This document shows positions 3,433-37,418 of a stretch of 64,000 bases of DNA, in pieces (position 1 is the stretch's first letter; every line of letters starts with the position of its first letter). Under the pieces are notes generated by a model, which ran no database searches, was not told where the DNA came from, and was given only the letters and a program-made list of their open reading frames with translations. The DNA lies in assembly GCA_016178785.1 (NCBI GenBank), contig JACOSO010000021.1, positions 1 to 64,000 of the forward strand, given 5' to 3'. A program made the position numbers and the translations under genes. The DNA comes from Bacteroidota bacterium. GTDB taxonomy: Bacteria > Bacteroidota > Bacteroidia > Cytophagales > Cyclobacteriaceae.

Positions 3433-3478
3433 GTTCGGTGACAACCTGCCTACCAGACAGGCACCGACCTTGGGCAAG
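3433..3478 (+). repeat. GTCGGTG hairpin family member (3.4 kb)
   Basis: TCGGTG (3435-3440) pairs with CACCGA (3462-3467). The loop contains a second small inverted repeat (CCTG ... CAGG), and the right arm is followed by the family tag TTGGGCAAG. A degenerate half copy (GATCGGTGACAATAAC) follows at 3480. The rest of the gene-free stretch 3354-3635 holds this hairpin and the 88-bp repeat copy 2; no gene is convincing there. Confidence 0.7.
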
Positions 3479-3543
3479 AGATCGGTGACAATAACAGGCT
3501 TAAAATTGGGATCAGATTCAATGTCGCTGGTTAAAGCGGGGGG

Positions 3544-3631
3544 GCAATTCAAAGTTCCAGATTTAAAATTCGCAATTAGCCTAGTCCAGCAATGTTGAAT
3601 CTTGAATTTTAAATCTTGAATCAATGTCGTT
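3544..3631 (+). repeat. 88-bp dispersed palindromic repeat, copy 2
   Basis: Nearly identical to 1541-1628, with the same 13-bp arms (AGATTTAAAATTC and its inverse) and a different spacer. It ends 4 bp downstream of the minus-strand gene that stops at 3636. Confidence 0.85.
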
Positions 3632-3635
3632 GGTA

Positions 3636-3854
3636 CTACTTGAAATGCTCGTTATTTTCTTCGCTCCTGAGCAATCCTTTACCACAAGACATGTTGATGG
3701 ATACACCACATTGTCCGCACCTACCTGGCATGTACCTGCTGAATGGCCGGTATATCTTTTGATTGCATTGGGGATGATGTACATAGCCGGTGACCATACT
3801 TAATAATTTGCTGCTGATGGGGATGGGTTGAATATCTTCTTTGAATGGTTTCAT
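3636..3854 (-). CDS. Hypothetical protein, Cys-rich C-terminal half (72 aa)
   Basis: A 72-residue frame from ATG at 3854. The middle carries HHPQCNQ, then CGQCG and CGKGLL, four Cys and two His that could bind a metal or form disulphides. There is no signal peptide and no membrane segment. It lies 11 bp downstream of another small unknown gene on the same strand, so the two may be co-transcribed. The family is not recognised. The Cys pattern and the tight spacing are the only support for its being real. Confidence 0.45.
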   Translation of the reverse strand: MKPFKEDIQPIPISSKLLSMVTGYVHHPQCNQKIYRPFSRYMPGRCGQCGVSINMSCGKGLLRSEENNEHFK

Positions 3855-3865
3855 AGATGGAGCAG

Positions 3866-4114
3866 TTAGTTTTGTTGATCGCGATCGGGGGCCATACTAA
3901 AACTCACCACCAATTTGTTGGGATCTACGATCGTTCCGGGCAACTGCACATTGTAGCTGCTGCCTGAAAGCACAGCCCTTCCTACTCCAGGGGCTCCATT
4001 TGTCACCGCCCTAAAGCCGAACTCACACATCTTCATTAAGAGTTGGTTGTCGTGGATGTGTGCACCTGTTACTACAGGCCAGTTTTTATCGTTCTTGTCG
4101 AAAACATAGTCCAT
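3866..4114 (-). CDS. Hypothetical protein (82 aa)
   Basis: I use the ATG at 4114 (MDYVFDKNDKNWPVV); the frame stays open upstream to a TTG at 4138, which lies inside a direct repeat and is less likely. The product is soluble, about 82 residues, with a Gly-rich middle (NGAPGVGRAVLSGSSYNV) and a C-terminus PNKLVVSFSMAPDRDQQN. No motif is recognised. It is the first gene of a probable two-gene unit with the Cys-rich protein 11 bp downstream. Its upstream region carries a direct repeat shared with the region before the lipoprotein gene at 4727. Confidence 0.45.
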   Translation of the reverse strand: MDYVFDKNDKNWPVVTGAHIHDNQLLMKMCEFGFRAVTNGAPGVGRAVLSGSSYNVQLPGTIVDPNKLVVSFSMAPDRDQQN

Positions 4115-4129
4115 AAGCTTGCTTTTTTG

Positions 4130-4203
4130 ATGAATCAAAGGTGGAGGAACAAATCAGGCCGGGTAAGCGCATAAATACCCGTTTTCAAAAACAGGTATTT
4201 CTA
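4130..4203 (+). repeat. Direct repeat, copy 1 (AAGCGCATAAATACCC)
   Basis: It shares TCAAAGGTG, GGTAAGCGCATAAATACCCG and the following AT-rich hairpin (AAATACC ... GGTATTT) with 4574-4650, in the same orientation. It lies just upstream of a minus-strand gene; copy 2 lies upstream of a plus-strand gene. Confidence 0.65.
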
Positions 4204-4241
4204 ACTGGTTATATTGGTTTTACAGTGACGTGCTTGTTGTT

Positions 4242-4340
4242 TTAAAGTAGGCAGTAGACAAAAGGCAGTCGGCAGTAGACAGAAGGCAGTCGGCAGCGAG
4301 TATGAACTGCCTACTGGTGACTGCTTACTGCCTACTTTAA
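4242..4340 (+). repeat. GGCAGTAG-type element with 15-bp inverted ends
   Basis: A 99-bp element bounded by TTAAAGTAGGCAGTA (4242-4256) and its perfect inverse (4326-4340). Inside are tandem GGCAGT(C/A)GGCAGTAGAC units. Related sequence recurs at 41176-41265, 41287-41405, around 44045 and inside asnB (45334-45360). The remaining gene-free sequence 4341-4573 shows nothing recognisable. Confidence 0.75.
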
Positions 4341-4573
4341 TTCCGTCATAATAAACTTAACTTATCACTAGTAGATTGAGTTGATAAGAACTGAAACTCA
4401 ACTTTTTGAAACACCCCACAAAAATCCATAGGTAGCTCTTGCGCCATTGAGATTCCTAAACCGGCCACAAGAAGCTACCACGGATTCAGCCAACCTGTAT
4501 CATATTTTTCTGAGAGTCCAATCGCCAGGCCACTTCTATTCAATCGCAAACAGTGGTCTGGCGACTTTCACTT

Positions 4574-8997: not shown

Positions 8998-9144
8998 TTT
9001 TTACTTGTCCAATCTAAAACAAAAACTCCGGGAGTTAAACTATGGCTTCCTCAAGAAGGCCGTGTGGCCGACAATCGAATTCAGCAAGTATCAGGTTTCT
9101 ATCCGTTTCTCCTGCCTGTAGTTTTGAATTAAAATTTTACAAAC

Positions 9145-9618
9145 ATGAAGACACAACAAGAATCAAACATGTCAAAGGAAGAAAAAAACAAGGCCATAGT
9201 AGGCGAATGGTTCACCCATTTCTGGGGCAAAACCTGCGATCTCGGCATCGTTGACGAGCTCGCTGCTCCCAATATGCTTCTGCGTTATTCCCTTCACGAA
9301 CCTCGCCACGGGCATGAGGACATCAAAGCGTTCATGACCGACTTTCGCAAGGCATTCCCCGATCTTAACTTTTGGGGCACTGCCGATCTTATTGCCGAGG
9401 GCGACTATGTAGTTGGTCGTTGGGAAGGTGGCGGCACGCACACAGGTCCGGCTTTCAGTGATTTTCTCATCGGAGGCTTACCGGCAGCAACAGGCAGGAA
9501 GATGCATTTTACCGGCACCACTGTACTTCGTCTTGAAAATGGTAAAATCGTTGAAGAGATTGGACTGGACGATGGTGTAACAGCACTTCAACAACTTGAA
9601 TTGATTAAGGCCATCTGA
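9145..9618 (+). CDS. SnoaL-like ester cyclase family protein
   Basis: 157 residues from ATG 9145; a second Met at 9169 (MSKEEKNKAIV) is an alternative start. The NTF2-like fold of the SnoaL/ester-cyclase group is indicated by GEWFTHFWGK, the segment DIKAFMTDFRKAFPDLNFW, and the C-terminal GTTVLRLENGKIVEEIG. Known: some SnoaL proteins close polyketide rings, but most bacterial homologues in isolation have unknown substrates. It is cytoplasmic, with no signal peptide. A strong hairpin starts 5 bp after the stop. Confidence 0.82.
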   Translation: MKTQQESNMSKEEKNKAIVGEWFTHFWGKTCDLGIVDELAAPNMLLRYSLHEPRHGHEDIKAFMTDFRKAFPDLNFWGTADLIAEGDYVVGRWEGGGTHTGPAFSDFLIGGLPAATGRKMHFTGTTVLRLENGKIVEEIGLDDGVTALQQLELIKAI

Positions 9619-9623
9619 TTTTT

Positions 9624-9651
9624 AGCGGTCGGTGAGTTGTCACCGACCGCT
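9624..9651. terminator. Perfect 12-bp stem hairpin between convergent genes
   Basis: AGCGGTCGGTGA (9624-9635), loop GTTG, TCACCGACCGCT (9640-9651). It lies between the ends of a plus-strand and a minus-strand gene, so it could end transcription from both sides, although no U-run follows. Its core GGTCGGTG/CACCGACC is that of the dispersed hairpin family. Confidence 0.75.
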
Positions 9652-9707
9652 GCTCTCAACTTAAAAGCTCAATTATCTGCCCCTTTGACTCGATCAAAAA
9701 ATTCGGA

Positions 9708-10502
9708 TCATGTTGGTTCATGCAGGCGAGCTGCTTGAGAGGGGGTTATTCCTGCATATGATTTGAATTCCTTGATAAAATGCGCCTGATCGTAATAACC
9801 ACATTCAAGAGCTATGGAAGTAAGGGAAGATTCTGACGATTGAATTAGTTCAAGACTCTTATTGAATCGTTGAACGCTATGAAAGCTTTTTGGTGTTAAA
9901 CCTACCCACTCAAGAAATAATCTCTGAACATAGCGTTCAGAAAACCCATAGTGTGACGCTAGATTCTCTATACTGAAGGCATCGTCCTTATAGATATGGT
10001 TGCACAGCTCTTCAACCAATTTGAATTGCCCTGTTTTTTTATCGCTCTTGAGTAATCTCCGGATTAAGAATGAATCGAGAACTTTAATTTTTTGCGCAAG
10101 CGAATGCTGATCCATCAGTTGGTCATACCATCCGGTTGATTCTTTATTTAGTATATCGTAAAGATCAATCGAGCCGTTGGTGAAGTTAGATATCTGATCG
10201 GGAAAGAAAAGAGCACTGGCACATGAATAGAACCGCGCGACCAAAAGAGTAGTGCCTTTTGTCACTGTAGCCCTGGTCGGTGTAGTTAAATGTCCGAGCA
10301 CCTCCAGGTTGGGCACTTTTGCAAAACTATCACCTCGGTGCCTGACCGTATTCCCGTTCGAGATGTCTATACAAAGTTCTACGTGTCCGCTGGGGTACAT
10401 AACTTCCATGGAAACACTCTCATCGCAGGTGCAAACCCAATAATACTTTATATATGGTTTTAAAATATCCGATGGGGGGAACCCTTTAGACTCCGTAAAC
10501 AT
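9708..10502 (-). CDS. AraC-family transcriptional regulator
   Basis: 264 residues. The N-terminal domain (about 1-120, LKPYIKYYWVCTCDES ... MYPSGHVELCID) matches the cupin-like domain often labelled DUF6597. The C-terminal AraC domain (about 168-262) has two helix-turn-helix parts: SIENLASHYGFSERYVQRLF and TSIALECGYYDQAHFIKEFK, ending with the typical GITPSQAAR. The ligand is unknown. It is convergent with the ester-cyclase gene and divergent from the SnoaL-like gene at 10607, either of which could be a target. Confidence 0.9.
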   Translation of the reverse strand: MFTESKGFPPSDILKPYIKYYWVCTCDESVSMEVMYPSGHVELCIDISNGNTVRHRGDSFAKVPNLEVLGHLTTPTRATVTKGTTLLVARFYSCASALFFPDQISNFTNGSIDLYDILNKESTGWYDQLMDQHSLAQKIKVLDSFLIRRLLKSDKKTGQFKLVEELCNHIYKDDAFSIENLASHYGFSERYVQRLFLEWVGLTPKSFHSVQRFNKSLELIQSSESSLTSIALECGYYDQAHFIKEFKSYAGITPSQAARLHEPT

Positions 10503-10606
10503 TTTTGTCTTTCTATATTTTAATTCGGTAGTTCGTTTTTTTACAATTTTCTTTTCTCACTGGATTCTTCATTTGTATAAAATTATCTACAACAAAATTT
10601 TAACAT

Positions 10607-11086
10607 ATGAATAACAATAAAAAGATTCTACTCCTTGCCTTCCTGGCATTCGTCCATTTCATTACGCATGCGCAATCGAACAAAACCAATGAAAATGCTT
10701 TATTGGAAGAAGCCAAAAAAGCGATTGCCAAAAGTAATGCCATGCACTTCGACTTATACGCTAAAAATGACGGATCTGTTGTTAAACTATTTGCCGAAGA
10801 TGCATGCCTTATGGCACCTAACGCGCCTGCCCTATGCGGTCGTGATGGACTTGCCAAGTTTTTTAAAGATGCCTACGAAACAGGTGGAGTCAGAAGTGGT
10901 AAGATCACCACACTAAATGTCTACGGAGACGGCCACGAATTTGTAACGGAAGAAGGACTCTACGAAGTCTTTGATGCCAACAAAAAATTAGTTGATGATG
11001 GCAAATTTCTGATCCTGTGGAAAAAGACTAAAGATGGATGGAAAGATTTCAGAGATTCATTCAGCAGTAATCGTACACAGCAATAG
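10607..11086 (+). CDS. Secreted SnoaL/YybH-like (DUF4440-type) protein
   Basis: 159 residues with a cleavable signal peptide (MNNNKKILLLAFLAFVHFITHAQ). The mature part fits the NTF2-like YybH/DUF4440 group: an early helix (EEAKKAIAKSNAMHFDLYAK), then VVKLFAEDACLMAPNAPALCGRD and a C-terminal ILWKKTKDGWKDFRDSFSS. Function unknown; the fold often binds small ligands. It is transcribed away from the AraC-type gene at 9708-10502 and may be under its control. A stem-loop of the dispersed hairpin family follows 15 bp after the stop. Confidence 0.8.
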   Translation: MNNNKKILLLAFLAFVHFITHAQSNKTNENALLEEAKKAIAKSNAMHFDLYAKNDGSVVKLFAEDACLMAPNAPALCGRDGLAKFFKDAYETGGVRSGKITTLNVYGDGHEFVTEEGLYEVFDANKKLVDDGKFLILWKKTKDGWKDFRDSFSSNRTQQ

Positions 11087-11101
11087 TGCGCTGCCGTTTC
11101 T

Positions 11102-11132
11102 GCCTGTGGTCGGTGACAACATCGACCCAGGC
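11102..11132. terminator. Stem-loop of the GTCGGTG family between convergent genes
   Basis: GGTCGGTG (11108-11115), loop ACAA, CATCGACC (11120-11127), extended by GCCTG (11102-11106) with CAGGC (11128-11132). One G-T pair replaces G-C in the stem. It lies between convergent genes and fits a bidirectional terminator. Confidence 0.7.
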
Positions 11133-11138
11133 TAAAAC

Positions 11139-11678
11139 TTACCTTGTCTCGACATACATTTGAATGATGTCGACATACTCGCCAGAGATTTGCTTTATGG
11201 CTTTCACATGTTTGCCTTCTTCTACAAATCCTAAATTCTTGTACAGCTCAATGGCATTTGTATTTGTGGCAAACACATTCAAAAAAACTTTTTCAATTCG
11301 ACCGTTTTCTTTAGCCCAGTTCAAAAGAGTCTTGATTAACGCCCGCCCGATTCCTCGCGCTTGATAATCGGGATGAACGTTTACGCCAAACTCTCCGGTG
11401 TGGCAGTTTTTCTTTTTGCCAAGTGGCCCAAAAAATAAAAGTCCGACTATTTCTTTATTCATTTCTGCAACCAAAGTAATTGCCGAAGGGTTCTGTAAAG
11501 AATTGTTTATCCAGGTTTTCTCCTCCTCAATGGTTATTCCGTATTCGTCTATAGTTGTTAGCACCTGATCGGTCGATGTAAATAATACCTTGGAGTATTG
11601 AATTATTTTTTCAGCATCATTTTCATCAGGTCTTCTGATGAAAAAGGTTCTGCCGTCTTTGGTTTGGTGTTCAGTCAT
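11139..11678 (-). CDS. GNAT-family N-acetyltransferase
   Basis: I use the ATG at 11678 (MTEHQTKDGRTFFIRRP); the frame extends to a TTG at 11705, which is less likely. 179 residues. The acetyl-CoA loop is QARGIGRA (about 106-113), preceded by the beta strand GEFGVNVHPDY and followed by VFLNVFATNTNAIELYKNLGF, the usual end of the GNAT fold. The substrate is not deducible. It is cytoplasmic. Confidence 0.9.
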   Translation of the reverse strand: MTEHQTKDGRTFFIRRPDENDAEKIIQYSKVLFTSTDQVLTTIDEYGITIEEEKTWINNSLQNPSAITLVAEMNKEIVGLLFFGPLGKKKNCHTGEFGVNVHPDYQARGIGRALIKTLLNWAKENGRIEKVFLNVFATNTNAIELYKNLGFVEEGKHVKAIKQISGEYVDIIQMYVETR

Positions 11679-11818
11679 AATCACGCTGTTGCTCTTTGGG
11701 GCCAAGACTAATAAATAAAACGCTGATGAGGAACGTCAAGTTTGACGATATGATTCTTGATTATGAGTGGAGAAGGCGAAAAAATAGTAAGATGAATCTA
11801 TAACCTACCGCTGGCAAT

Positions 11819-12187
11819 TTACTTTACCACTGGCAATTTCGCGCCATTCCAACTTTCGATACCACCTTCCAGTTCAAAAACGGTTAATCCCTTTTTGCGC
11901 ATAGATACGGCTGCCGTGTGGCTGCGCTTGCCTGCCAGGCAATAAACTAAATAGGTTTTGCTTTTGTCGAGTTTGGCAGTATAGGTATCAAAATCTTTAT
12001 CATGTACATTTTTATTAACAGCCTTATCCAGGTGACCTTCATTGAATTCATCGGCAGTTCGCACATCGAGCACCACGGCAGACTTGTCATTCAACTTTGT
12101 TTTAAACTCCTGTGCCGAGAGGATTTGTTTTTGCTGCGCAAATAGCAGGGTAGGAGCTAGCGCTAGAATGAATATGAAATGTCGCAT
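11819..12187 (-). CDS. Exported rhodanese-like protein
   Basis: 122 residues: signal peptide (MRHFIFILALAPTLLFAQQ) then a single rhodanese domain with VVLDVRTADEFNEGHL and the active-site loop CLAGKRS (Cys83). Known: rhodanese domains carry sulfur as a Cys persulfide or serve redox roles. The export signal places it in the periplasm. It stands alone. Confidence 0.92.
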   Translation of the reverse strand: MRHFIFILALAPTLLFAQQKQILSAQEFKTKLNDKSAVVLDVRTADEFNEGHLDKAVNKNVHDKDFDTYTAKLDKSKTYLVYCLAGKRSHTAAVSMRKKGLTVFELEGGIESWNGAKLPVVK

Positions 12188-12372
12188 AACTGTTGATTCA
12201 AATGAATTTTATTCTCCATTTAAAGTTAGTCAGAATATAATTGGCATTCATACTCCTAGTTGTAATTCATCGCACTAGCTAGCCATCTGCCGACTCATCC
12301 TGCTGAACGTGTAAGGCAAGTAGTCTTCAACATGCATGTTTAGTAAGTTAAATCCCCAAATCATTAAAAGCC

Positions 12373-12987
12373 ATGAAGAAAATTGCATTTGTAATGTTGG
12401 CTTGTATCGAATCTATCATAGGCCTGTCGCAACCAGCGCTTGTTGCATTGGAAGACAAAACCAAAACCTTACAAGAGCGCTATCTTTTAATGAAAACCAA
12501 ATCCGAAACCTATCAAGACTACAAGGTCATTAAGGAAAGTATCCTGGATGGGGTGTGGAAAATAGGAAATGATTCCTTGAGGAAGCGAGAGCATCAACTT
12601 GAGGAAGCAAACGACAAAATAAAAGCTCTTCGAAATGAAGTGAGCATTGCCCGTGCGGAATTAAAATCCAATGAAGACTCTATGGCGAACGTTGTTTTTG
12701 CCAGCACACACCTAACTGTGTTGGGCATGAATTTTACAAAAGGGTTTTTTCTCACGCTGGTCGCCCTTGGTGGAACTGCACTGCTGGCAACAATTTTATT
12801 GCTTATGACGCGCATCAAAGCCATGCAAGTATTTGTGAAAGAAAGCAAGGTGATCGTGGCGAGTACTACCAACGAGTTTGAAGATTACAAACGAAAAATG
12901 TTTGAGAAGCAAACAAAGCTCACACGCGAATTACAAACGGAACGAAACAAATTAATCGAGCTGAAGGAATCTCAGAAGGCGGTATGA
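12373..12987 (+). CDS. Membrane-anchored coiled-coil protein, unknown function
   Basis: 204 residues. An N-terminal signal peptide (MKKIAFVMLACIESIIGLSQ), a helical periplasmic part with a coiled coil (REHQLEEANDKIKALRNEV), one membrane segment (FFLTLVALGGTALLATILLL, about 118-137) and a charged cytoplasmic helix to the end. Similar Bacteroidota proteins are sometimes labelled tRNA methyltransferase; no such domain is visible here. A diverged copy of 42 bp of its 3' end lies 1140 bp downstream at 14074-14115. Confidence 0.75.
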   Translation: MKKIAFVMLACIESIIGLSQPALVALEDKTKTLQERYLLMKTKSETYQDYKVIKESILDGVWKIGNDSLRKREHQLEEANDKIKALRNEVSIARAELKSNEDSMANVVFASTHLTVLGMNFTKGFFLTLVALGGTALLATILLLMTRIKAMQVFVKESKVIVASTTNEFEDYKRKMFEKQTKLTRELQTERNKLIELKESQKAV

Positions 12988-13015
12988 ATTTAGACTCGCA
13001 CATCACAACTCTCGT

Positions 13016-13969
13016 TTACTTCGCTGGAGTAATTACAATGTTTCTGAAATCGATCGGTCCATGGTCGCCCTGAAGAAGTAGCGGGCCCGGCTCACCTTCT
13101 TTGCTGTCGATGGCTCCGCCAGTGATACCGGGAATCTCCTGGTTGCTAATAATAGTTACTCCATTCGCAACAACCGTTACCATTCGTCCAATTAAAGTAA
13201 CATCATAGGATTGCCACTCCCCCGGATCTTTTGCCACCATTTCACTTGGTGTAAGGAAACCATAAACCCCTCCTAAGTAAGTCTTCGATGGCTCTTTTCC
13301 TTTGTTGTCTTCGATCTGCACTTCGTAACGGCCACGCAGATAAACCCCGCTGTTGCTTCCTTTGTCATAACGGAACTCGATATGCAGTTTGAAGTCACTA
13401 AACTTCTGATCGCTTACCAAATTGCTTCCCGACTTAGCGCTTCTTAAAACTCCATTTTCTACTTTCCATTGATTCTCTCCCATTGCATGCCAGCCCTTCA
13501 TATCTGCATCGTTGATAAGTTTAATCGGTTGCCCCCAGGCAGGCTCTCCTGATCCCCTTAATAAAGGAGCGCGTACTGCTGTCCATGTATATTTTTTATC
13601 ATCGGTATAAATCATCGTGCCTTTCAGGTTGCCGCCATCCAATTCTCCTTCAAAGTCCATGTTTCTAGTTCCCTGCTCCCACTGTGGTGGAATTGAGAAG
13701 CTAAATTTTCCATTCGCCACATTGACAACAGCTATAGGCCGTGCACTTCCGAATGCATACACAAACCGCCCTACTAATGTTTTGCGCCCTGACTTCTCAA
13801 TCTCCAGCCATGACGGGAGCTCTCTTCCATCTTTCTGAATGGTCATGTCCCAGCGACCTTCAATCGCGGTCATCTCTTGTGCAGATACATCGGTGCGGAC
13901 TGAGTAGAATAACACGGCAATCAATACGAAACAGAAGCGATGCACTAAAGGGAATAGTATTGTTTTCAT
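13016..13969 (-). CDS. DUF1080 (3-keto-disaccharide hydrolase) family protein
   Basis: 317 residues: signal peptide (to about residue 30, DVSAQ), a beta-rich N-terminal domain (about 32-130, EGRWDMTIQKDGRELPSWLE), then the jelly-roll DUF1080 domain (about 145-315) with DADMKGWHAMG, KLHIEFRYDKGSNSGVYLRG and YEVQIEDN. Known: DUF1080 proteins include periplasmic 3-keto-glycoside hydrolases. A second DUF1080 protein is encoded at 47215-47958. The gene is flanked on both sides by direct copies of the 3' tail of the coiled-coil gene (12934-12975 and 14074-14115). Confidence 0.88.
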   Translation of the reverse strand: MKTILFPLVHRFCFVLIAVLFYSVRTDVSAQEMTAIEGRWDMTIQKDGRELPSWLEIEKSGRKTLVGRFVYAFGSARPIAVVNVANGKFSFSIPPQWEQGTRNMDFEGELDGGNLKGTMIYTDDKKYTWTAVRAPLLRGSGEPAWGQPIKLINDADMKGWHAMGENQWKVENGVLRSAKSGSNLVSDQKFSDFKLHIEFRYDKGSNSGVYLRGRYEVQIEDNKGKEPSKTYLGGVYGFLTPSEMVAKDPGEWQSYDVTLIGRMVTVVANGVTIISNQEIPGITGGAIDSKEGEPGPLLLQGDHGPIDFRNIVITPAK

Positions 13970-14027
13970 TTCCCAATGCTACTTATTCGTTAATAAATAT
14001 CCAAGCTCTAAACTCACAGATGGTTCA

Positions 14028-14060
14028 GGTCAGTGACAACACTGACCTTGGGCAAAAAAT
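14028..14060 (+). repeat. GTCGGTG hairpin family member with compensatory change
   Basis: GGTCAGTG (14028-14035), loop ACAA, CACTGACC (14040-14047), then TTGGGCAAAAAAT. Relative to the usual GGTCGGTG/CACCGACC, a G-C pair is replaced by A-T on both arms. It lies downstream of the minus-strand dehydrogenase gene at 14159-15205. Confidence 0.8.
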
Positions 14061-14073
14061 ATCCAAAAAACTG

Positions 14074-14115
14074 CAAACGGAATGAAACAAATTGATTGAG
14101 CTGAAGGAATCTCAG
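14074..14115 (+). repeat. Duplicate of the 3' tail of the coiled-coil gene
   Basis: 42 bp matching 12934-12975 with three differences (both include GAGCTGAAGGAATCTCAG). Offset 1140 bp, same orientation. Not coding here. Confidence 0.85.
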
Positions 14116-14158
14116 GCGATTTGAATTTCTGTGTATTTATTTAAAATGATTTTAATAC

Positions 14159-15205
14159 TCACGGAGTTAACATTACTTTCATGCAGTTGTCTTCTTTAGC
14201 CGCAAAAATCCTGTAACCATCAGCGCCTTCTTTGAGTGACATGCGGTGGGTAATGATATCAATGAATGGAAATTTCTTTTCCTGGATCAACTTCAAAATT
14301 TCTGGCATCATACCTCTGGCCGGACATCTCCCGGTAACGTAAGTGATATTCTTGTCATACGCCTGCACAGGTGAGAAGGGCAAAAACTTGTCGTTGCAAA
14401 CACCAACACTCGAGATAATACCACCCGGTCTTACCAATTGATAGGACAACTTCAAACTGAATTCGCTGCCAATAGCTTCCATCACCGCATCAGCTCCTCT
14501 TCCTTCGGAAGCATTTTGCACAATGCTAACTGCATCGGCCATTGAAGTATTGATCGGTATGGCGCCAAATTTTTCAGCCATTTTTAGCCGGGCAGCTTCA
14601 CGATCTACCGCATAGATTTTCTCCGCACCATACGTGCGAGCTCCAAGTATAGCCATGAGACCCACAGGGCCGCATCCGATCACCACATAAACTCCTCGAG
14701 GTTTTATTTGCGCTTGCTTTGCACTGTAAAAACCAGTCGAGATGATATCACCGGCAAGCACACCTTCTTCCACTGAAACACCTTCGGGTAGTTTCATCAG
14801 TGATGAATCTGCCAGAGGCACGCGAACAAATTCAGCCTGGCCACCGTGCAATCCAATTCCATTTTCTACCCAGCCAAAGAGCTGATTTTTCACACATCGG
14901 CTGGTAAGACCAATTTGACAATAAAAGCATTCACCACAGCTTATTGAAAAAGGTGAAATGACCACATCGCCTACACGCAATGACTTCACTCCCTTCCCTA
15001 CCTCCATTACCTCTCCTGCAAATTCATGGCCCATGCATGTGTGCATGTCAAGCCCGGTTTCGCGTCCGTGATAAACGTGCAGGTCTGAGCCACAAATGGC
15101 GCAACATTTCACTTTTACTACGACATCTGACGGCTGAGCGATTCCAGGATCAGCTACAGATTCATAAGTGATTTTCTCAATCCCATTGAAAGTAAGTGCT
15201 TTCAT
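14159..15205 (-). CDS. Zinc-dependent MDR alcohol/polyol dehydrogenase
   Basis: 348 residues. Catalytic zinc ligands Cys38 (CAICGSDLH), His60 and Glu61 (MGHEFAGEV). Structural zinc Cys90, 93, 96 and 104 (SCGECFYCQIGLTSRC). The NAD(P) motif is GCGPVG (177-182), followed by an acidic residue in AVDREAARL that favours NAD. The family includes alcohol, threonine, sorbitol and glutathione-dependent formaldehyde dehydrogenases; the substrate cannot be chosen from sequence alone. A member of the hairpin family follows its stop codon. Confidence 0.92.
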   Translation of the reverse strand: MKALTFNGIEKITYESVADPGIAQPSDVVVKVKCCAICGSDLHVYHGRETGLDMHTCMGHEFAGEVMEVGKGVKSLRVGDVVISPFSISCGECFYCQIGLTSRCVKNQLFGWVENGIGLHGGQAEFVRVPLADSSLMKLPEGVSVEEGVLAGDIISTGFYSAKQAQIKPRGVYVVIGCGPVGLMAILGARTYGAEKIYAVDREAARLKMAEKFGAIPINTSMADAVSIVQNASEGRGADAVMEAIGSEFSLKLSYQLVRPGGIISSVGVCNDKFLPFSPVQAYDKNITYVTGRCPARGMMPEILKLIQEKKFPFIDIITHRMSLKEGADGYRIFAAKEDNCMKVMLTP

Positions 15206-15338
15206 TTATCTGGTGTTTGTTTAATCATTCGCAAGATGAGATGAAGTTAAGTCATGGGCAACAAAGTGATGTCACGTGCAGGGTGGTATTTGATTTTTTA
15301 ACGGCCGCCCTTTGTTTGGTCAGGTGATAATTGCTCAA

Positions 15339-15400
15339 GGTTGGTGACAACCTACCTGCATCCGTACGACTCCGGGAGGCGGGCACCGACCTTGGACAAA
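15339..15400 (+). repeat. GTCGGTG hairpin family member with expanded loop
   Basis: GGTTGGTG (15339-15346) pairs with CACCGACC (15384-15391) through one G-T pair, with a 37-nt loop instead of ACAA. The tag TTGGACAAA follows. It lies just downstream of the stop at 15405 on the minus strand. Confidence 0.7.
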
Positions 15401-15404
15401 CACG

Positions 15405-17450: not shown

Positions 17451-17626
17451 GGGCAAAATAATTTTAGCGTTAATGCACATGAAATGATCAACGGGGGGTC
17501 ATTTTACATGCGAAGGTTTTTTGATTGTACTGATTAAAACCAAATAAGATGCCACATCCCACTCACGCTTAGATAGCGTAACGAAGTTAACGTTATATTT
17601 TTCTCAAGTCTTATGTCTTTCTAGTT

Positions 17627-19320: not shown

Positions 19321-19417
19321 GAGTGATATCGTTGTTAGCTGTTGGTTTTAAATATATGGAGAATTCGTCTTTTGTGCCGAACCGTCTACAGAAGTGATAC
19401 AAACAGATTTGGTTTCA

Positions 19418-19456
19418 GGTTGGTGACAACACGTGACAACACCGACCTTGGGCAAA
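19418..19456 (+). repeat. GTCGGTG hairpin family member, duplicated loop
   Basis: GGTTGGTG (19418-19425) pairs with CACCGACC (19440-19447). The loop repeats the unit GTGACAACAC, as if one arm had slipped. The tag TTGGGCAAA follows. It lies just downstream of the CPBP gene stop at 19480. Confidence 0.75.
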
Positions 19457-22172: not shown

Positions 22173-22278
22173 TATTTTTAGATTAACTCAATGATTTTGA
22201 GCTTGGACGCGATAAGCGGCCGGAGAGTTACCAGTTTATTGTTCTTAAAGTTCCGGTAAATAGAAGGACAGAATTGCT

Positions 22279-22544
22279 GGAGTGTGTTGCGGTCAGCGAC
22301 ACGACAACGAAAGGTGACCAACTTCATCTAAGGGAAAACGAACGCTAAATTTTTGGGGATTCTTCGCTGGTGGATGATTATTTTTTATGTGCCTGTATAT
22401 TCAAGACCCGTGCAGAAGTTTAAGTGTCTTGTTACTCTTTGCCGCTCAGAATTGGGTTCATTTTTTTCGCAACCAATCCTGAGCAAAGCGAAGGATCTCC
22501 TCTTCGCAGCTCCGATCAAAACTAACAACACCGACCTTGGACAT
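22279..22544 (+). repeat. Composite dispersed repeat, copy A
   Basis: The head is TTGCGG ... GACAACGAAAGGTGACC. The core starts CTAAATTTTTGGGGATTC and includes ATCCTGAGCAAAGCGAAGG, and the tail is ACACCGACCTTGGACA. It matches copies B (30253), C (30512) and D (35916) in the same order and orientation. It fills much of the 564-bp gap between the CPBP and DUF2200 genes; no gene is supported in that gap. Confidence 0.88.
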
Positions 22545-22695
22545 AAGGACTGCCCATGATTTATTTACGCTCATCTGCCTTAAAGGAGATGCCGCCAATT
22601 CGAACATGTAGCCGTGAAAAATTCAATGCATTGGACATGAACACCAAGTTAGAAAGAAAATAAAAAGATGAGTTTGGGGTTGAAAGTCAGAGTCA

Positions 22696-22725
22696 GATCG
22701 GTGAAAACACCGACCTTTGGAGAAA
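22696..22725 (+). repeat. GTCGGTG hairpin family member
   Basis: GATCGGTG (22696-22703), loop AAAA, CACCGACC (22708-22715), tag TTTGGAGAAA. It lies about 12 bp beyond the stop of the minus-strand DUF2200 gene. Confidence 0.7.
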
Positions 22726-23518: not shown

Positions 23519-25900
23519 ATGTTTCATAACTACTTAAAAATTGCAGTCAGAAATATCAACCGATATACTTCCTATACTTTAATTAATGTTTTAGGCCTGG
23601 CACTTGGAATATCTTGTGCGTTAATAATTTTCTCCGTAGTTAAACACCATCTGACCTTTGATAATTTTCATCCGAATTCAGATCGTATTTATCGTTTTGT
23701 AACCGAACAACACCGAGATCAGACCAGTTATCAATCAAGTGTCCCCAATCCATTGGGAAAAGTGTTTCGTGAAGATTACACTTTTGGTGAGAAAGTCGCA
23801 CGTATATGCACCTTTGATGAGTTGGTGATTACATTTGAGCTAAAAGGGAAAGAGAAAAAATTTAAGGAAGCTGAGGTGGCTTTTGTAGAATCTGAGTTCT
23901 TTGATATTTTCAACTACCCACTTAGTCAGGGAAATTCCCAAACTGCTTTAACCGAACCCAATACTGCAATTATAACCGAAAAAATTGCGCAAAAATATTT
24001 TGGTGACGAAAGCGCTATCGGTAAACTATTCAGGCTTGATAAAATTGAATTTAAAGTTACCGGCATACTAAAAGACTTTTCTAAAAATACAGATCGAAGG
24101 ACAGAAATCTATTTCTCGTACAGCACGCTCAAGGATTACAACGAATGGTTTGCAAGTGATGACTCTTGGGGAGGTATTTCAAGTCAAATGCAATGTTTTG
24201 TTAGACTTAAACCTGGCATTACATCTTCTGAAGTAGAGCAGGTGCTACCGGCTTATGTTAAAAAGTATCGTCCGACCAGCAAAAATGTACACCATTATAA
24301 ACTTCAGCCGCTCAATGATATCCATTTCAACGCTCAATATGGTGGTGTCATGGAGAAGCGTAATCTTTGGGTTCTTTCGTGTATCGGATTTTTTCTCCTC
24401 ATCACCGCTTGTGTTAATTTTATCAATCTGGCTACGGCCCAGGCAGTCAATCGTTCGAAAGAAGTAGGTATCCGAAAAGTTTTAGGTAGTGTTCGCAGGC
24501 AGCTCTTCTGGCAATTTATTTTGGAGACGGGTATCATCACACTATTAGCTATGGTAATCGCATATACCATTTCGCATTCCGCTTTGCCCTATGTGAGTGA
24601 GTGGTTCACATCTCCCATAAGCACCGATGTGCTTTTTGAATGGCCGTTGATGCTGTTTATGCTCCTGTTATTTTTTCTCGTGACCTTGGTCTCTGGCTCG
24701 TACCCTGGACTGATTTTGGCTGGCTTCAAACCAGTAGCTGCCCTGAAGGGGAAACTTTCACATCAGCATACCGGAGGATTCAAAATAAGACGCGCGCTGA
24801 TTATCACCCAGTTTTCTATTTCTCAGGTTCTCATGATCGCACTAATAGTAATTATTTATCAAATGCACTACGCAAAGCAATCTGATCTGGGATTTAACAA
24901 AGATGCCATTGTCATGGTACCCATTGGTTCGCACGATGAGAAAATGAATACATTGAAGCATCAGTTATCCGGAATATCTGGTGTTGAAAAGATTTCCCTT
25001 TGCTTTACTGCTCCGTCTGCTTCATGGTCTTGGAGTACTTCTTTGCGCTACGAGAATCGGGCAGAAGAAGAAGGTTTCTCGATCAATTTCAAAGGCGGTG
25101 ATGAGCATTACCTCTCCACATTTGATCTTGGCCTGGTCGCTGGAAGAAATCTATTGCCTTCCGATACAGCCAGGGAATTTTTAGTAAACGAAACATTTGT
25201 CAAGAAACTTAACTTACAATCACCTGATGATATTCTGGGCACAACGATCATCTCTGGTGGTGGTAGAATGAGGGGTCCGGTGGTTGGGGTTGTGAAAGAT
25301 TTTCATGATCAGTCATTCCATCAAAAAATCAATCCCATATTTATTTCGACAGTAAATGATCAGTACAACTATTATGCATTGAAAGTAAGCTCTTCAAATC
25401 TACAGAACACGTTGGCCGCCTTAGAGAAATCATGGAGTCAGATGTACCCTGAAAAGGTTTATGAATACACTTTTCTGGATGACCAAATTGCAGAATTTTA
25501 CGAGACGGAAGATACTGTACTGAAACTGATACAGGCATTTTCGTTTATCGCCATTCTTATTGGATGCATGGGTTTATACGGGCTGGTATCGTTTATGGCC
25601 GCACAAAAAACTAAGGAAATAGGAATACGTAAAGTTCTGGGTGGGAGTGTCTCACAAATACTTTGGATTTTCGGGAAGGAATTTTCCGGTCTCATTATTA
25701 TATCCTTTTTACTAGCTGCTCCGGCAAGCTGGTGGTTGATGAATGGATGGCTCCAGAATTTTCAGTATCGAATTGACATAGGTGCATGGATTTTTATAAT
25801 AGCTATATCGATCACATTCACTATTGCTCTGTTGACAGTTGGATTTCAGTCGTTCAAGGCAGCTTTAATGAATCCAGTGAATTCATTAAAGACTGAATAG
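23519..25900 (+). CDS. FtsX/MacB-like ABC transporter permease
   Basis: 793 residues with four long membrane regions: near residue 20-40 (YTLINVLGLALGISCALIIF), 285-305 (WVLSCIGFFLLITACVNFI), 330-400 and the C-terminus. Two FtsX domains are present, each with NRSKEVGIRKVLGS- and QKTKEIGIRKVLGGS-type signatures, and large periplasmic MacB-PCD domains between. Known: such permeases work with a separate ATPase in export, lipoprotein sorting or antimicrobial peptide resistance. No ATPase gene lies nearby, which is common for this Cytophagales-type family. The gene is intact and isolated. Confidence 0.93.
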   Translation: MFHNYLKIAVRNINRYTSYTLINVLGLALGISCALIIFSVVKHHLTFDNFHPNSDRIYRFVTEQHRDQTSYQSSVPNPLGKVFREDYTFGEKVARICTFDELVITFELKGKEKKFKEAEVAFVESEFFDIFNYPLSQGNSQTALTEPNTAIITEKIAQKYFGDESAIGKLFRLDKIEFKVTGILKDFSKNTDRRTEIYFSYSTLKDYNEWFASDDSWGGISSQMQCFVRLKPGITSSEVEQVLPAYVKKYRPTSKNVHHYKLQPLNDIHFNAQYGGVMEKRNLWVLSCIGFFLLITACVNFINLATAQAVNRSKEVGIRKVLGSVRRQLFWQFILETGIITLLAMVIAYTISHSALPYVSEWFTSPISTDVLFEWPLMLFMLLLFFLVTLVSGSYPGLILAGFKPVAALKGKLSHQHTGGFKIRRALIITQFSISQVLMIALIVIIYQMHYAKQSDLGFNKDAIVMVPIGSHDEKMNTLKHQLSGISGVEKISLCFTAPSASWSWSTSLRYENRAEEEGFSINFKGGDEHYLSTFDLGLVAGRNLLPSDTAREFLVNETFVKKLNLQSPDDILGTTIISGGGRMRGPVVGVVKDFHDQSFHQKINPIFISTVNDQYNYYALKVSSSNLQNTLAALEKSWSQMYPEKVYEYTFLDDQIAEFYETEDTVLKLIQAFSFIAILIGCMGLYGLVSFMAAQKTKEIGIRKVLGGSVSQILWIFGKEFSGLIIISFLLAAPASWWLMNGWLQNFQYRIDIGAWIFIIAISITFTIALLTVGFQSFKAALMNPVNSLKTE

Positions 25901-27426: not shown

Positions 27427-27494
27427 AGTGGTGGAGTGTGTTGCGGGTCAGTCAGGCGCCACCACAACAACAAAGGCGACCAACTTCAACCAAG
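27427..27494 (+). repeat. Composite repeat, head only
   Basis: It matches the head part of copies A-D (GTGTTGCGGGTCAG ... CAACAACAAAGGCGACC) but lacks the core and tail. It ends 52 bp before the stop of the minus-strand gene at 27546. Confidence 0.7.
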
Positions 27495-30252: not shown

Positions 30253-30511
30253 GGGGTGGATTGCGCTAAATACAACAAAAGGCGACCAACTTCAACTAAG
30301 GGCAAAACGCGCTAAATTTTTGGGGATTCTTCGCTGGTAATAATTATTTTTTATATGGCTGTATATTCAAGACCCGTGCAAAGTTTAAGCGTCTTGCTCT
30401 TTTGCCGCTCAGAATTTGGGTTCATTTTTTTCGCAACCAATCCTGAGCAAAGCGAAGGATCTCCTCTTCGCAGCTCCGATCAAAGCTAACAACATCGACT
30501 TTGGGCAAAAA
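30253..30511 (+). repeat. Composite dispersed repeat, copy B
   Basis: Head (30253-30300) shortened, then the core from CTAAATTTTTGGGGATTC to TCTCCTCTTCGCAGCTCC, and the tail AACATCGACTTTGGGCAAA. It is directly followed by copy C, so the two are in tandem. Confidence 0.88.
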
Positions 30512-30800
30512 AGTGTGGGGCTTGGAGTGTGAATGTCTCGGATCAGGTGACACCGCAACAACGAAAGGTGACCAACTTAAACCAAGAATAAAACGCGTGC
30601 TAAATTTTTGAGGATTCTTCGCTGGTAATAATTATTTTTTATATGGTTGTATATTCAAGACCCGTGCAAAAGTTTAAGCGTCTTGCTCTTTTGCCGCTCA
30701 GAATTTGTGTTCATTTTTTTTGCAACCAATCCTGAGCAAAGCGAAGGATCTCCTCTTCGCAGCTCTGATCAAAGCTAACAACACCGACCTTGGACAGAGT
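30512..30800 (+). repeat. Composite dispersed repeat, copy C
   Basis: A complete unit: head with CACCGCAACAACGAAAGGTG, core (TAAATTTTTGAGGATTC onward), tail ACACCGACCTTGGACA. It ends 15 bp before the stop of the outer-membrane protein gene. Copies B and C occupy almost the whole 696-bp gap 30120-30815; the first 130 bp of the gap show nothing else. Confidence 0.9.
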
Positions 30801-33275: not shown

Positions 33276-33310
33276 GAAATTCGATTGGTTTGATTTTCCA
33301 ATAAATTTCA

Positions 33311-33412
33311 GAGAAACCGGATGGCGACCCGTTCAGTCCGATAAAGTATAACCTAATTTCAGCCTTAAACCCGGTATGATTTATTTTTCGATACTCCGTT
33401 GGAGTTACCCTG
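33311..33412 (+). repeat. Tandem copy of the AraC gene 3' end (outer copy)
   Basis: About 102 bp similar to 33416-33519, in the same orientation. In the minus-strand frame it encodes GVTPTEYRKINHTGFKAE, matching the regulator's own end (GVTPTEYRKTNHPGFKSEN). It lacks the stop at the matching place and is not translated from the gene. Confidence 0.88.
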
Positions 33413-33415
33413 CGA

Positions 33416-33519
33416 GAGAAACCGGACCATGACCCGTTTAGCCCGATAAAGTATAACCTAATTTTCTGACTTAAACCCGGGGTGATTTGTTTTTCGATAC
33501 TCCGTTGGTGTTACCCCTG
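33416..33519 (+). repeat. Tandem copy of the AraC gene 3' end (functional copy)
   Basis: The inner of two head-to-tail units of about 104 bp; it overlaps the true 3' end of the gene, including its stop at 33458. The duplication must have been made in place. Confidence 0.85.
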
Positions 33520-34678
33520 TGATTCGTTTAAAGACCGTATTAAAAGTCACTTTGTTGTTATAACCAACAGCATACGCTATTTCTATGATGTTCATCTCGT
33601 GACTACCACTGACCAACAGGCGTTTGGCCTCATCAATTCTCCTGGCATTGATGAAATCAAAAAAGTTGGTCTTGTAAAATTGGTTGATCACCTGAGAGAC
33701 AAAGTGCCGGTTGCTTTTCAATTTTTCGGCAAGTGTCTCCAGCTTTAAGTTGTTTTCTTTATAGAGCTGCTCCCGGGACATTAGCAGTTCAAGTTCGCCC
33801 GCCAGTTTTTTAGCCAGAGAGGCTGGGAGACCAGAGTTTTTATATTTTATATCTCCTCCCTCACTGGAAAAGTTTTCATCCGGGTGAGAACCGGCTGATA
33901 ATGGCTGGCCGCTTTGCTGAGTTTGCTGCTTTAAATGCGGCAGTAATGAGTCAACTATTGGCTCGCCCTCTTTGAGTTTTTCATAGCTATCACCCAACCA
34001 GGCTAATAAGATAATAGAGCCACAAGCAGAGAGAGAAATGAAATAGTCTGCGAGTAAAATGTATCCCAGCGTAACAACGATTGACCAATAAAGTATTGTC
34101 AGAACAATGAATGAGATGAAGAAGACGAGTATCCAATTAGCCCACGGGCGCATATATCCTATGCTTGGGTAGGAACGGATTTGCCTTAGTAAAACGTAGC
34201 CGTAAATGGAAAGATGAGTGATCTTAACGATTTCAGCATAATCAATGTATCCGTTTATAATATAAGAAAGAGCAGGTTGCTCGGGATGTAGAATCTTGAT
34301 TTCCCCTGAACTGAGATAAAAGGGCATCTTGAGGCCCAGCATGATCAGGAAGGGTAAAAAATGAAAACCATAGTTGATCAGGGGTTTAGGATTTTCAAAT
34401 ACAGAATCAAAATAAATTAACAGCAGTGGGCCGTAGAGCAAGGCGAAAAGAGAGGTTGATCCATAGAACTCAGGAACGCGATAAAAGTAATTCGTCCAAA
34501 AAAGGCAAGATTCCAGCAAACCGAGAGACTGTAAAAGAAGATAAAAGCCCAGCGCCTTAGATGCCCTGTCATTTAGGCGAGCCGTAATTAATTTGATCGA
34601 AAAAAATATTCCAATAAACGAAAGCCCGATAAACAAGAAGTTCCAAAAATTTAGAAGGATTTCGGGTAGCTCTTTCAT
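33458..34678 (-). CDS. Membrane-anchored AraC-type regulator
   Basis: 406 residues from ATG 34678 (the frame extends to a TTG at 34690). Seven likely membrane segments occupy residues 1-230 (starting LLNFWNFLFIGLSFIGIFFSI), then a linker and an AraC helix-turn-helix domain near residues 300-400 (ETLAEKLKSNRHFVSQVIN, IIEIAYAVGYNNKVTFNTVFKR, GVTPTEYRK). Known: such proteins occur in Bacteroidota, sensing a membrane or periplasmic signal and acting on DNA. The likely target is the outer-membrane barrel gene at 30816-33275. Confidence 0.9.
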   Translation of the reverse strand: MKELPEILLNFWNFLFIGLSFIGIFFSIKLITARLNDRASKALGFYLLLQSLGLLESCLFWTNYFYRVPEFYGSTSLFALLYGPLLLIYFDSVFENPKPLINYGFHFLPFLIMLGLKMPFYLSSGEIKILHPEQPALSYIINGYIDYAEIVKITHLSIYGYVLLRQIRSYPSIGYMRPWANWILVFFISFIVLTILYWSIVVTLGYILLADYFISLSACGSIILLAWLGDSYEKLKEGEPIVDSLLPHLKQQTQQSGQPLSAGSHPDENFSSEGGDIKYKNSGLPASLAKKLAGELELLMSREQLYKENNLKLETLAEKLKSNRHFVSQVINQFYKTNFFDFINARRIDEAKRLLVSGSHEMNIIEIAYAVGYNNKVTFNTVFKRITGVTPTEYRKTNHPGFKSEN

Positions 34679-34795
34679 GACAGAGTTCAAATCTGCAAAA
34701 AAGGAACTATAGAATGCAACATCACACTGATTTTTAGGAGTATTTTGAAGGCAGTTTGTGACAACCAGCCCTGGGGCAGAAAAACAACTAGTGTA

Positions 34796-35809: not shown

Positions 35810-35915
35810 TTTTAGATTTGTTATTTGAGTATCACATGTCGAAATATAAGGAATTCTTCATCGCACGTTGAATCCTTAAGTTTACAACTGTGACAACACC
35901 GATCTTGGGCAAAAG

Positions 35916-36188
35916 TGTTAGAGTGTGTTGCGGGTCAGGCAACACTGAACATCGAAAGATGACCAACTTCAACTAAGGATAAACGCGCGTTAAATTTTTG
36001 GGGATTCTTCGCTGGTGATGATTATTTTTTATGTGGCTGTATACTCAAGACCCGTGCAAAAGTTCAAAATGTCTTGCTCTTTTGCCGCTCAGAATTGAGT
36101 TCATTTTTTTTTCGCAACCAATCCTGAGCAAAGCGAAGGATCTCCTCTTCGCAGTTCCGATCAAAGCTAACAACACCGACCTTGGACA
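35916..36188 (+). repeat. Composite dispersed repeat, copy D
   Basis: The fourth full unit, with head (GTGTTGCGGGTCAGG), core and tail (ACACCGACCTTGGACA). A degenerate hairpin-family half copy (ACTGTGACAACACCGATC) lies just before it at 35887. Confidence 0.88.
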
Positions 36189-36190
36189 GA

Positions 36191-36264
36191 AAAGTGTGGG
36201 GGCTTGGAGTGTGAACTTTGCGGGTCAGGCGACACCGCAACAACGAAAGGTGACCAACTTCAAG
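36191..36264 (+). repeat. Composite repeat, extra head directly after copy D
   Basis: AAGTGTGGGGGCTTGGAGTG then CGGGTCAGGCGACACCGCAA. It matches the start of copy C and stops at the gene end, 7 bp before the stop at 36271. Together with copy D it fills the 461-bp gap 35810-36270. Confidence 0.75.
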
Positions 36265-36270
36265 TAGCGA

Positions 36271-36582
36271 TTAATTCCCTCCTCTCACAAAATTAAGCAT
36301 CAAAGAAATTATCTGGCTTGTTAACAAAACAAATGAAAGCACAAGCAAAATGTTAAGGAAACGAGAAATATGGAGATTTCTTTTGGGCCAGATAAATAAC
36401 AAGAATAGAGAGAGACAAATGGTAATCGCAACGAAGACGAATAACGATGCAATGAATTTCAACAGAAGAGAAGATGACTCTTCGGCCAATGCACTGATAA
36501 CTGAATACAACATGGAGATGGCAGCAAATCCAATCCAGTGCAGTTTATAATCTCCAAACCAATTGGGAGTTGACTCTTCCAT
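36271..36582 (-). CDS. Small membrane protein (103 aa)
   Basis: 103 residues with three likely membrane segments (IGFAAISMLYSVISALA, FIASLFVFVAITICLSLFLLFI, FLNILLVLSFVLLTSQIISL). No family recognised. The gene lies 9 bp downstream of a larger membrane protein gene on the same strand; the two probably form one operon. Confidence 0.65.
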   Translation of the reverse strand: MEESTPNWFGDYKLHWIGFAAISMLYSVISALAEESSSLLLKFIASLFVFVAITICLSLFLLFIWPKRNLHISRFLNILLVLSFVLLTSQIISLMLNFVRGGN

Positions 36583-36591
36583 AACGCACTG

Positions 36592-37185
36592 CTATTTGTT
36601 GTGTTCTCTCCCCATCGCATCATCAAATTGCTTTTGAAGCTCCTCGTCTTGAGGATTTTCCAAAGCTTTGATCATGAGTTCTGCAAATGCCGGGTTGTCC
36701 CGATGATAAATTCTTATCAGTGATCGTCCAGGAGTAAGGAAAACTATGACGGCTAAAAGTAATGCAACCACTCCCCTAACAAAGATGCCTTTGTAAAAGG
36801 AGTCAATGGTTTTTCTTTTTATTAAAAATACAATTCCAGCTGCTAAAAGAGTCATGAATAGTCCAGTAGCGCCAATGGTGATCATTTCACGTGAGCCATT
36901 CCAAATTTGTAGCTTGAAAAGTATCCCAATCAAAACAATAGAAAGGAATAAGCCCACTCCAATCGCACCCAAGACTCGACCTGTGCTGATGTCGGCATAA
37001 GAAGCTTTTTTAAACATGGTTCTGAATCCAATGTCATTCAATAAAGCAAATCCAAAATAGAAGTAAATCATTGCCAACACGGAAGCACTGATGATTAAGA
37101 TTGGATTTCCCGTTCGAATTAGTAATAGTTTTAACAGAAACCCGAGCAAAGAAATTATAAGGCCTGCACGTTCAATAAGTTTCAT
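36592..37185 (-). CDS. Multi-pass membrane protein, unknown (197 aa)
   Basis: 197 residues from ATG 37185. The open frame continues to 37260, but that part is composite repeat sequence (37236-37293) and is rejected. Five or six membrane segments (GLIISLLGFLLKLLLI, VLGAIGVGLFLSIVLIGILF, GATGLFMTLLAAGIVFLI, GVVALLLAVIVFLTPG) are followed by an acidic C-terminal tail (NPQDEELQKQFDDAMGRE). No family recognised. It is the first gene of a two-gene unit. Confidence 0.65.
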   Translation of the reverse strand: MKLIERAGLIISLLGFLLKLLLIRTGNPILIISASVLAMIYFYFGFALLNDIGFRTMFKKASYADISTGRVLGAIGVGLFLSIVLIGILFKLQIWNGSREMITIGATGLFMTLLAAGIVFLIKRKTIDSFYKGIFVRGVVALLLAVIVFLTPGRSLIRIYHRDNPAFAELMIKALENPQDEELQKQFDDAMGREHNK

Positions 37186-37235
37186 GAGAAATAATTTATT
37201 AATTGCATCAAAGGTATTTAAAAATGGAAGACTGT

Positions 37236-37293
37236 TCTTGTGTTGCGGGTTAGACGACACCGCAACAACGAAAGATGACCAACTTCAACTAAG
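37236..37293 (+). repeat. Composite repeat head, with degenerate hairpin downstream
   Basis: TGTTGCGGGTTAGACGACAC, then CGCAACAACGAAAGATGACC. A weak hairpin-family copy (GACCGGTGACACACCAACCC) follows at 37320, with the tag CTGGGCATAAAA. It lies in the divergent gap between the membrane genes and the AlbA_2 gene. Confidence 0.7.
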
Positions 37294-37418
37294 AGAGTCT
37301 CAAGTTAAATTTGGTTTCAGACCGGTGACACACCAACCCTGGGCATAAAACGACATACCTGTTAGATACTTAAAAATTTCTGACCTTTACATCTCAAGTC
37401 AGTTAATTATTTGAAGAC

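Follow-up and report, generated by a model that had tools for sequence, protein, structure and literature searches.

REP-associated tyrosine transposases (RAYTs; REP, repetitive extragenic palindrome) are HUH-type enzymes acting on single-stranded DNA, and the related IS200/IS605 insertion sequences are known to have short derivatives. A survey from 2018 (PMC6006769) describes, in the part available here, the RAYT-like TnpA-Y1 subclass 2.6, which is found mostly in Bacteroidetes and whose genes are bordered by atypical structures that lack GT[AG]G and recur at other places of the genome. For the RAYT gene itself, the available part of another study (PMC8266576) reports no evidence of mobility, and the spread of REPs is still unsettled. 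The stretch analyzed here, referred to as the window, comprises positions 1 to 64,000 of contig JACOSO010000021.1 (assembly GCA_016178785.1) of a bacterium from the family Cyclobacteriaceae and contains a family of short hairpins between its genes. The contig (C7) has a length of 87,374 bp, and the assembly amounts to 4,469,967 bp with a completeness of 96%. A preliminary description of the window considered the hairpins to be a terminator family, REP-like elements bound by a transposase-like protein, or stabilizers of mRNA 3' ends. The hairpins are, with a probability of roughly 0.87, REP-like elements that form the recognition ends of a RAYT, and the copies in the window look like the decayed remnants of a lost system.

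This assignment builds on a sample of 62 genomes of the same genus, in which labels such as G003 and G005 denote genomes and L-numbers denote loci. Three of these genomes (G202, G353, and G003) contain an open reading frame (ORF) of 170 amino acids between inverted copies of the hairpin. Pfam shows no family for this protein at a threshold of 0.001. The NCBIfam model NF047646 (REP-associated tyrosine transposase) was run on three of the seven proteins described below, all of which exceed its cut-off with 82 to 86 bits versus 80, and a profile search of the PDB gives one hit, the TnpA-REP structure 4er8 (E=0.003). At E≤1e-10, a RAYT search of the genus gives matches in 47 of the 62 genomes, and seven of these (G353, G202, G003, G035, G005, G026, and G019) form a top group with 287 to 374 bits. 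The hairpin type of the window is designated type I, and the seven proteins of the top group are designated type-I RAYTs. All seven contain the motifs NH-x-H and Y-x-x-NP, which we take to be the HUH motif and the catalytic tyrosine of a RAYT. Each is flanked by a hairpin on both sides, six according to a strict finder (five of them inverted), while the left copy in G005 was found with the covariance model R1. The intact form in the relatives is a unit of 0.6 to 0.7 kb with a RAYT gene of ∼170 codons between hairpins that are mostly inverted and carry their tags outward. Of the options in the preliminary description, the REP-like element with its transposase-like protein is well supported by a RAYT gene between hairpin copies in seven genomes of the genus.

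R1 was built from 62 distinct hairpin copies, all from other genomes of the genus, and its E-values are rough, resulting from a short calibration. The whole-genome and relative-wide search proposed earlier finds the family in the window's own genome and, at E≤0.1 and under strict filters, in 43 of the 62 genus genomes, with 1 to 41 matches each and none in the rest. At least three R1 matches occur in all seven genomes with a type-I RAYT, compared to 10 of the 55 others (p=4e-5), and at least five or at least seven matches occur in five of the seven, compared to 6 of the 55 (p=0.0012); these thresholds of 3, 5, and 7 were fixed after the counts were known. Locus L028, the sole match among public contigs, is not independent of G005, as the match places are identical. 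Viral contigs give no match. Genes of the family Y1_Tnp (PF01797), with matches in 50 of the 62 genomes, were considered as the cognate enzyme and rejected. Three of the four Y1_Tnp genes of G356 lie within ∼0.8 kb of a hairpin, but two mutually similar ones are surrounded by other hairpins of their own. A first regular expression found no tagged hairpins around PF01797 genes.

Across the genus, the hairpin type co-segregates with the RAYT clade. Of 63 inspected RAYT loci, 37 are flanked by an inverted pair of hairpins in which seven or more of eight arm bases agree, compared to 7 of 400 windows placed at random in loci rich in hairpins; the 63 loci (30 from the output of the RAYT search and 33 added by hand from its matches) are a part of the RAYT matches of the genus and include two, L128 and L129, that are identical over 2.2 kb. 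For the comparison with the RAYT tree, the inner five bases of the arm served as the hairpin label, which was assigned to 32 of 55 intact proteins, the other 23 being left out of the count. On the tree, 8 changes suffice for the nine labels, which is the minimum possible, in contrast to 17 to 25 in 300 shuffles. After the removal of labels found in a single row, 6 labels in 29 rows need 5 changes. The tree is a quick one, with 19 of its 52 forks open and some long branches. Visual inspection shows GCC ahead of the stem for most loci of type I and TGGTG, GTT for the majority of TGGTC loci, and CC for many of the CTGTG loci; the TCGTG loci are mixed in this respect. The window's own genome encodes a RAYT on contig C58 which falls into the TGGTC clade, and the imperfect hairpin GTTGTTGGTC-AGC-GACACAACAAC adjoining it on one side only is what the rule that the hairpin follows the clade predicts. 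The same contig shows, at 23162-24142 (L018 458-1439), two RAYT-like stretches in one frame of 359 codons, resembling a fused pair.

In the relatives, the RAYT unit also appears able to move as a whole, judging from the placement of its copies. G003 contains one RAYT unit of 674 bp and three units of 211 bp, two on its contig C80 and one on its contig C48, with unrelated flanks. All four open with TTGCC and close with GGCAA, and no target duplication is evident at these units. The 211-bp units are ∼92 to 95% alike and still encode codons 141-170 of the RAYT, and they therefore look like internal deletions of the 674-bp unit at separate places. G005 contains two TGGTG-type units of 650 and 634 bp which are 96% identical between the hairpin ends and in which both genes are broken. 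Their surroundings differ, apart from a further partial copy that adjoins one of the units and a matching stretch of 94 bp located ∼600 bp further out.

In the window itself, nine hairpin sites were found with R1; E-values refer to the own genome unless noted otherwise.

3431..3478, minus strand: type-I hairpin whose loop contains a nested hairpin and whose tag reads TTGCCCAA on the minus strand (25.1 bits, E=0.0015).
9618..9650, plus strand: type-I-like hairpin with a 6-base loop and without the usual tag, between convergent genes (21.7 bits, E=0.017).
11106..11135, minus strand: type-I hairpin between convergent genes, with one G-T pair and the minus-strand tag TAGCC (26.5 bits, E=5.5e-4).
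14026..14056, minus strand: type-I hairpin, the best preserved in the window, with A-T for G-C in the stem and tag TTGCCCAA (41.3 bits, E=1.5e-8).
15337..15400, minus strand: type-I hairpin with a long loop insert and tag TTGTCCAA (18.4 bits, E=0.18, weak).
19416..19456, minus strand: type-I hairpin with 10 extra bases in the loop and tag TTGCCCAA (25.6 bits, E=0.0011).
22694..22724, minus strand: type-I hairpin (22696-22715) heading a decayed RAYT unit, with a degenerate tag (31.9 bits, E=1.3e-5).
35886..35913, minus strand: degenerate type-I hairpin that retains tag TTGCCCAA (18.1 bits, E=0.22 in the genome and 0.003 in the window only).
37318..37347, minus strand: degenerate type-I hairpin between divergent genes, doubtful (13.1 bits, E=7.3 in the genome and 0.1 in the window only).

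Searched in the own genome at E≤10, R1 recovers all seven main copies as well as two degenerate ones out of three. The family is accordingly real for the nine listed copies, recovered with a model from other genomes, but the copy proposed near 34750 gives no match at this threshold. The hairpins had also been called dispersed, which does not hold for this genome: at E≤0.1, there are eight R1 matches in 4,469,967 bp, of which a single one is on C80 and seven are on C7, where they correspond to six distinct sites because both strands of one site match. The high genome-wide copy number of REPs is found neither in this genome, with seven of its eight matches on one contig, nor in the relatives, with at most 41 matches each.

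Such a local cluster after stop codons, mostly in one orientation and among small cassette-like genes such as GNAT, SnoaL, and DUF2200, resembles an integron cassette array with the hairpins as attC-like sites. This is very improbable, since none of 12 matches in the own genome passes the cut-off for an integron integrase (in an assembly of 96% completeness), all 14 control genomes contain these weak matches too, and the RAYT association explains the hairpins.

The reading as relics of a RAYT system gains from a gene remnant next to the hairpin at 22696-22715, listed here together with the repeated units of the window.

22583..22636, minus strand: remnant of a type-I RAYT gene, covering codons 2-19 at its start (tblastn).
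22266..22546, minus strand: repeated noncoding unit of ∼280 to 300 bp with a second hairpin, ending in half a type-I hairpin (self-comparison).
30272-30531, 30534-30798, and 35907-36265: further copies of the ∼280- to 300-bp unit, two of them in tandem (self-comparison).

All seven type-I RAYTs match the window at 22636-22583 in tblastn, with 67 to 87% identity over 15 to 18 codons and E-values of 0.001 to 0.089; the reversed window and the reversed query reach 0.24 and 0.46 at best. The gene stub begins 59 bp inside the hairpin, compared to 48 bp in the intact unit L084. This position just inside the hairpin makes the copies in the window look like relics of a lost system. The ∼280- to 300-bp units show 88 to 92% identity among pairs. 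Searched against 58 relatives, the 300-bp unit has matches within its own genome and, beyond it, a single one of 36 bp in G027. A second, imperfect hairpin family, GTTGCGGGTC-AGGC-GACACCGCAAC, lies at 22284-22308, 27440-27465, 30533-30559, 35924-35950, 36211-36241, and 37238-37266; it resembles the hairpin beside the RAYT on C58, a weak link (E=0.068). A direct repeat of ∼100 bp with 87% identity (33310-33410 and 33415-33516) lies between genes and overlaps with the 3' end of a gene (33458-34690). Pieces of transposases (DDE_Tnp_1_6 and DUF772) are found at 73-1417, the very start of the contig, which places the hairpin region near an assembly break.

Aligned copies of the hairpin show a tag three bases 5' of the stem GGTYGGTG, followed by the loop TTNT and the second arm CACCRACC. 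The tag reads T(T/A)GCC in 28, T(T/A)G(C/T)(C/T) in 46, and (T/A)G(C/T)(C/T) in 57 of the 62 aligned copies, from loci picked by their hairpins and not by the tag, and it is present on one side only, as in REPs. The canonical REP tags GTAG/GTGG and CGTC are not the tag in this alignment. The exact palindrome occurs in 2 of 296 genomes of a phylum sample, one of them in the same genus, and the palindrome with one mismatch occurs in 38 of the 62 genus genomes; the reversed pattern as a control occurs in 11 of the 62, at most twice each. For the window, a stem with a 4-base loop and a one-sided tag had been described. With any 4-base loop and up to three mismatches, three copies are found, compared to 0.03 expected, but no copy is exact, and the others deviate by loop inserts (at 3435, 15339, and 19418), by a longer loop (at 9624), or by additional changes. 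The tag is present on several copies, yet it is missing at 9624. The sequence TTGGGCAAA occurs six times in the window, compared to 1.5 expected (six were reached in 1 of 100 shuffles), but only three of its six occurrences (14048, 19448, and 35905) adjoin hairpins; the one at 30501 adjoins a half copy, and those at 21913 and 59487 adjoin neither.

The gene context was determined for the nine window sites, of which six are tandem (between genes of the same strand), two are convergent, and one is divergent, and for 59 copies in the relatives, from 16 loci picked for hairpins and with crude ORF calls. In the relatives, 22 copies are convergent (3.3% at random), 29 are tandem (10.7%), 5 are divergent (3.5%), and 2 are at edges, and only 1 of the 59 lies inside an ORF, compared to 76% at random. 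A short palindrome of 20 to 40 bp mostly between genes is typical of REPs, as are inverted pairs of the BIME/REPIN kind, with 11 opposite neighbors within 250 bp among these 59 copies. The frequency of convergent sites, the near absence from ORFs, and the paired changes in the stem would also suit intrinsic terminators or stabilizers of mRNA 3' ends, selected for their RNA fold. This explanation is unlikely. A scan of positions 9000-23200 for a stem followed by a T run gives 12 terminator-like sites, compared to 12.6 expected, and none of them is one of these hairpins, although the rules of the scan excluded two copies whose loops are long. A single orientation relative to the genes is seen in the window, but the tandem sites of the relatives are mixed, with 17 copies running with the genes and 13 against them (n=30). 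Furthermore, the hairpins are confined to one contig in the own genome, their sequence tracks the RAYT clades, and, according to the available part of PMC3733652, REPs are known at gene ends as well. An Rfam scan gives only tRNA at gathering scores. Least probable is the explanation as palindromic operators bound by a regulator, to which a short palindrome in several neighboring spacers would correspond; only one of the nine window sites and 5 of the 59 copies in the relatives lie between divergent genes, the tag is asymmetric, and the hairpins tightly flank RAYT genes.

Selection on the fold, proposed from changes on both arms, is supported for a part of the stem. The changes themselves are present in the sequence, with A-T for G-C at 14028 and G-T pairs at 11108, 15339, and 19418. 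A set of 55 copies was picked by the tag, the 5' arm, and the loop alone, which avoids a pairing bias, from the window and a part of the loci (L028-L053, L084-L090, and L149-L153). One C-G/T-A pair is paired in 50 of the 55 copies, compared to 40.0 expected, and the A-T/T-A pair at the foot of the stem is paired in 39, compared to 20.4 expected, both beyond all 2000 shuffles; the other 8 of the 10 tested pairs show no covariation beyond the shuffles. The 62-copy alignment, chosen by pairing and hence biased, has 94.6% of its cells paired and 50 cells changed on both sides, compared to 21.5 in shuffles, but neither its pairs with changes on both sides (3 versus 2.3) nor its pair types (13 versus 12.3) exceed the shuffles. 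Copies within one genome are related and do not represent independent events.

From these features, a likely cycle can be proposed. Here, the RAYT would bind the hairpin folded on one DNA strand, with the tag serving as a guide and the cut being made beside it. The cut strand would then be joined elsewhere, mostly into gaps after genes. The outcome would be the spread of the RAYT unit, of internal-deletion derivatives, and of single hairpins. In the genome of the window, the type-I RAYT would have been lost, leaving decaying copies and the gene stub in one region. The chances are about even that the RAYTs of this genus are self-mobile, IS-like elements rather than domesticated housekeeping enzymes, in which the gene travels together with its two tagged hairpins and gives rise to short copies with internal deletions as well as to single hairpins, with at least six RAYT subfamilies each having their own stem and perhaps their own 5' guide.

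Several observations weigh against a RAYT origin of the hairpins or the mobility of the unit. No type-I RAYT is found in the own genome (assembly 96% complete), the stub is short with E-values of 0.001 to 0.089 while an unrelated match in the window reaches 0.032, and the hairpin copies are few and clustered instead of numbering in the hundreds. A matching pair is missing at 26 of the 63 RAYT loci, some of which lie at contig ends and some of which encode the most distant proteins. The hairpins of G019 all run in one direction and have TTTACGAA where the tag would normally be. G356 and G006, with 41 and 16 R1 matches, have no RAYT match at E≤1e-10, and R1 may also catch hairpins of related types. 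G003 is a draft of 77% completeness, and its units could have multiplied by recombination. No empty insertion site is readable, and 14 kb of the window compared with the genus gave single-gene matches.

Several RAYT subfamilies with hairpins of their own, together with unit copies sharing the same ends, make two points testable, namely how a RAYT recognizes its own hairpin and whether the RAYT is itself mobile. If the proposed reading is true, natural variation could reveal the recognition code that links protein and hairpin. For annotation, the gene-end hairpins of this group would be relics of mobile DNA and not terminators.

The preliminary description knew no named family that fits. This stands insofar as the tag differs from both named REP tags, but PMC6006769 had already described RAYTs of Bacteroidetes whose flanking structures are atypical, and the kind is therefore known. 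Among the titles and beginnings of abstracts listed, neither a TTGCC-type tag nor whole-unit mobility is recognized for this group. What appears newer is the tag, the co-segregation, and, in one genome, the presence of three 211-bp deletion copies that share their ends with a 674-bp RAYT unit and lie at unrelated sites.

Subclass 2.6, as given in the available part of PMC6006769, resembles the system in its occurrence in Bacteroidetes, in a RAYT-like gene whose flanking hairpins lack GT[AG]G, and in further copies at other places of the genome. The structures of subclass 2.6 are called weaker there, in contrast to the strong stems of 8 to 11 bp with a TTGCC-kind tag described here. Like the GTAG- and CGTC-tagged REPs in the part of PMC3733652 at hand, the hairpins are palindromes of 20 to 40 bp with a one-sided tag which lie at gene ends, often as inverted pairs, and flank a RAYT; unlike those REPs, they carry the tag T(T/A)G(C/T)(C/T), and their copies are few and clustered. 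The REPtrons of Escherichia coli and Stenotrophomonas, as far as PMC8266576 was available, likewise place a RAYT between its own REPs, with RAYT groups that co-evolved with the form of the REP. Those RAYTs are mostly single copy, whereas one genome of the genus contains a full unit and three deletion copies. With the IS200/IS605 elements in the accessible part of PMC6006769, the units share a Y1 transposase, hairpins at both ends, and guide bases. They differ in that a single tagged hairpin provides both ends, mostly in inverted orientation, and that the protein fits the RAYT model and has no Pfam family at 0.001.

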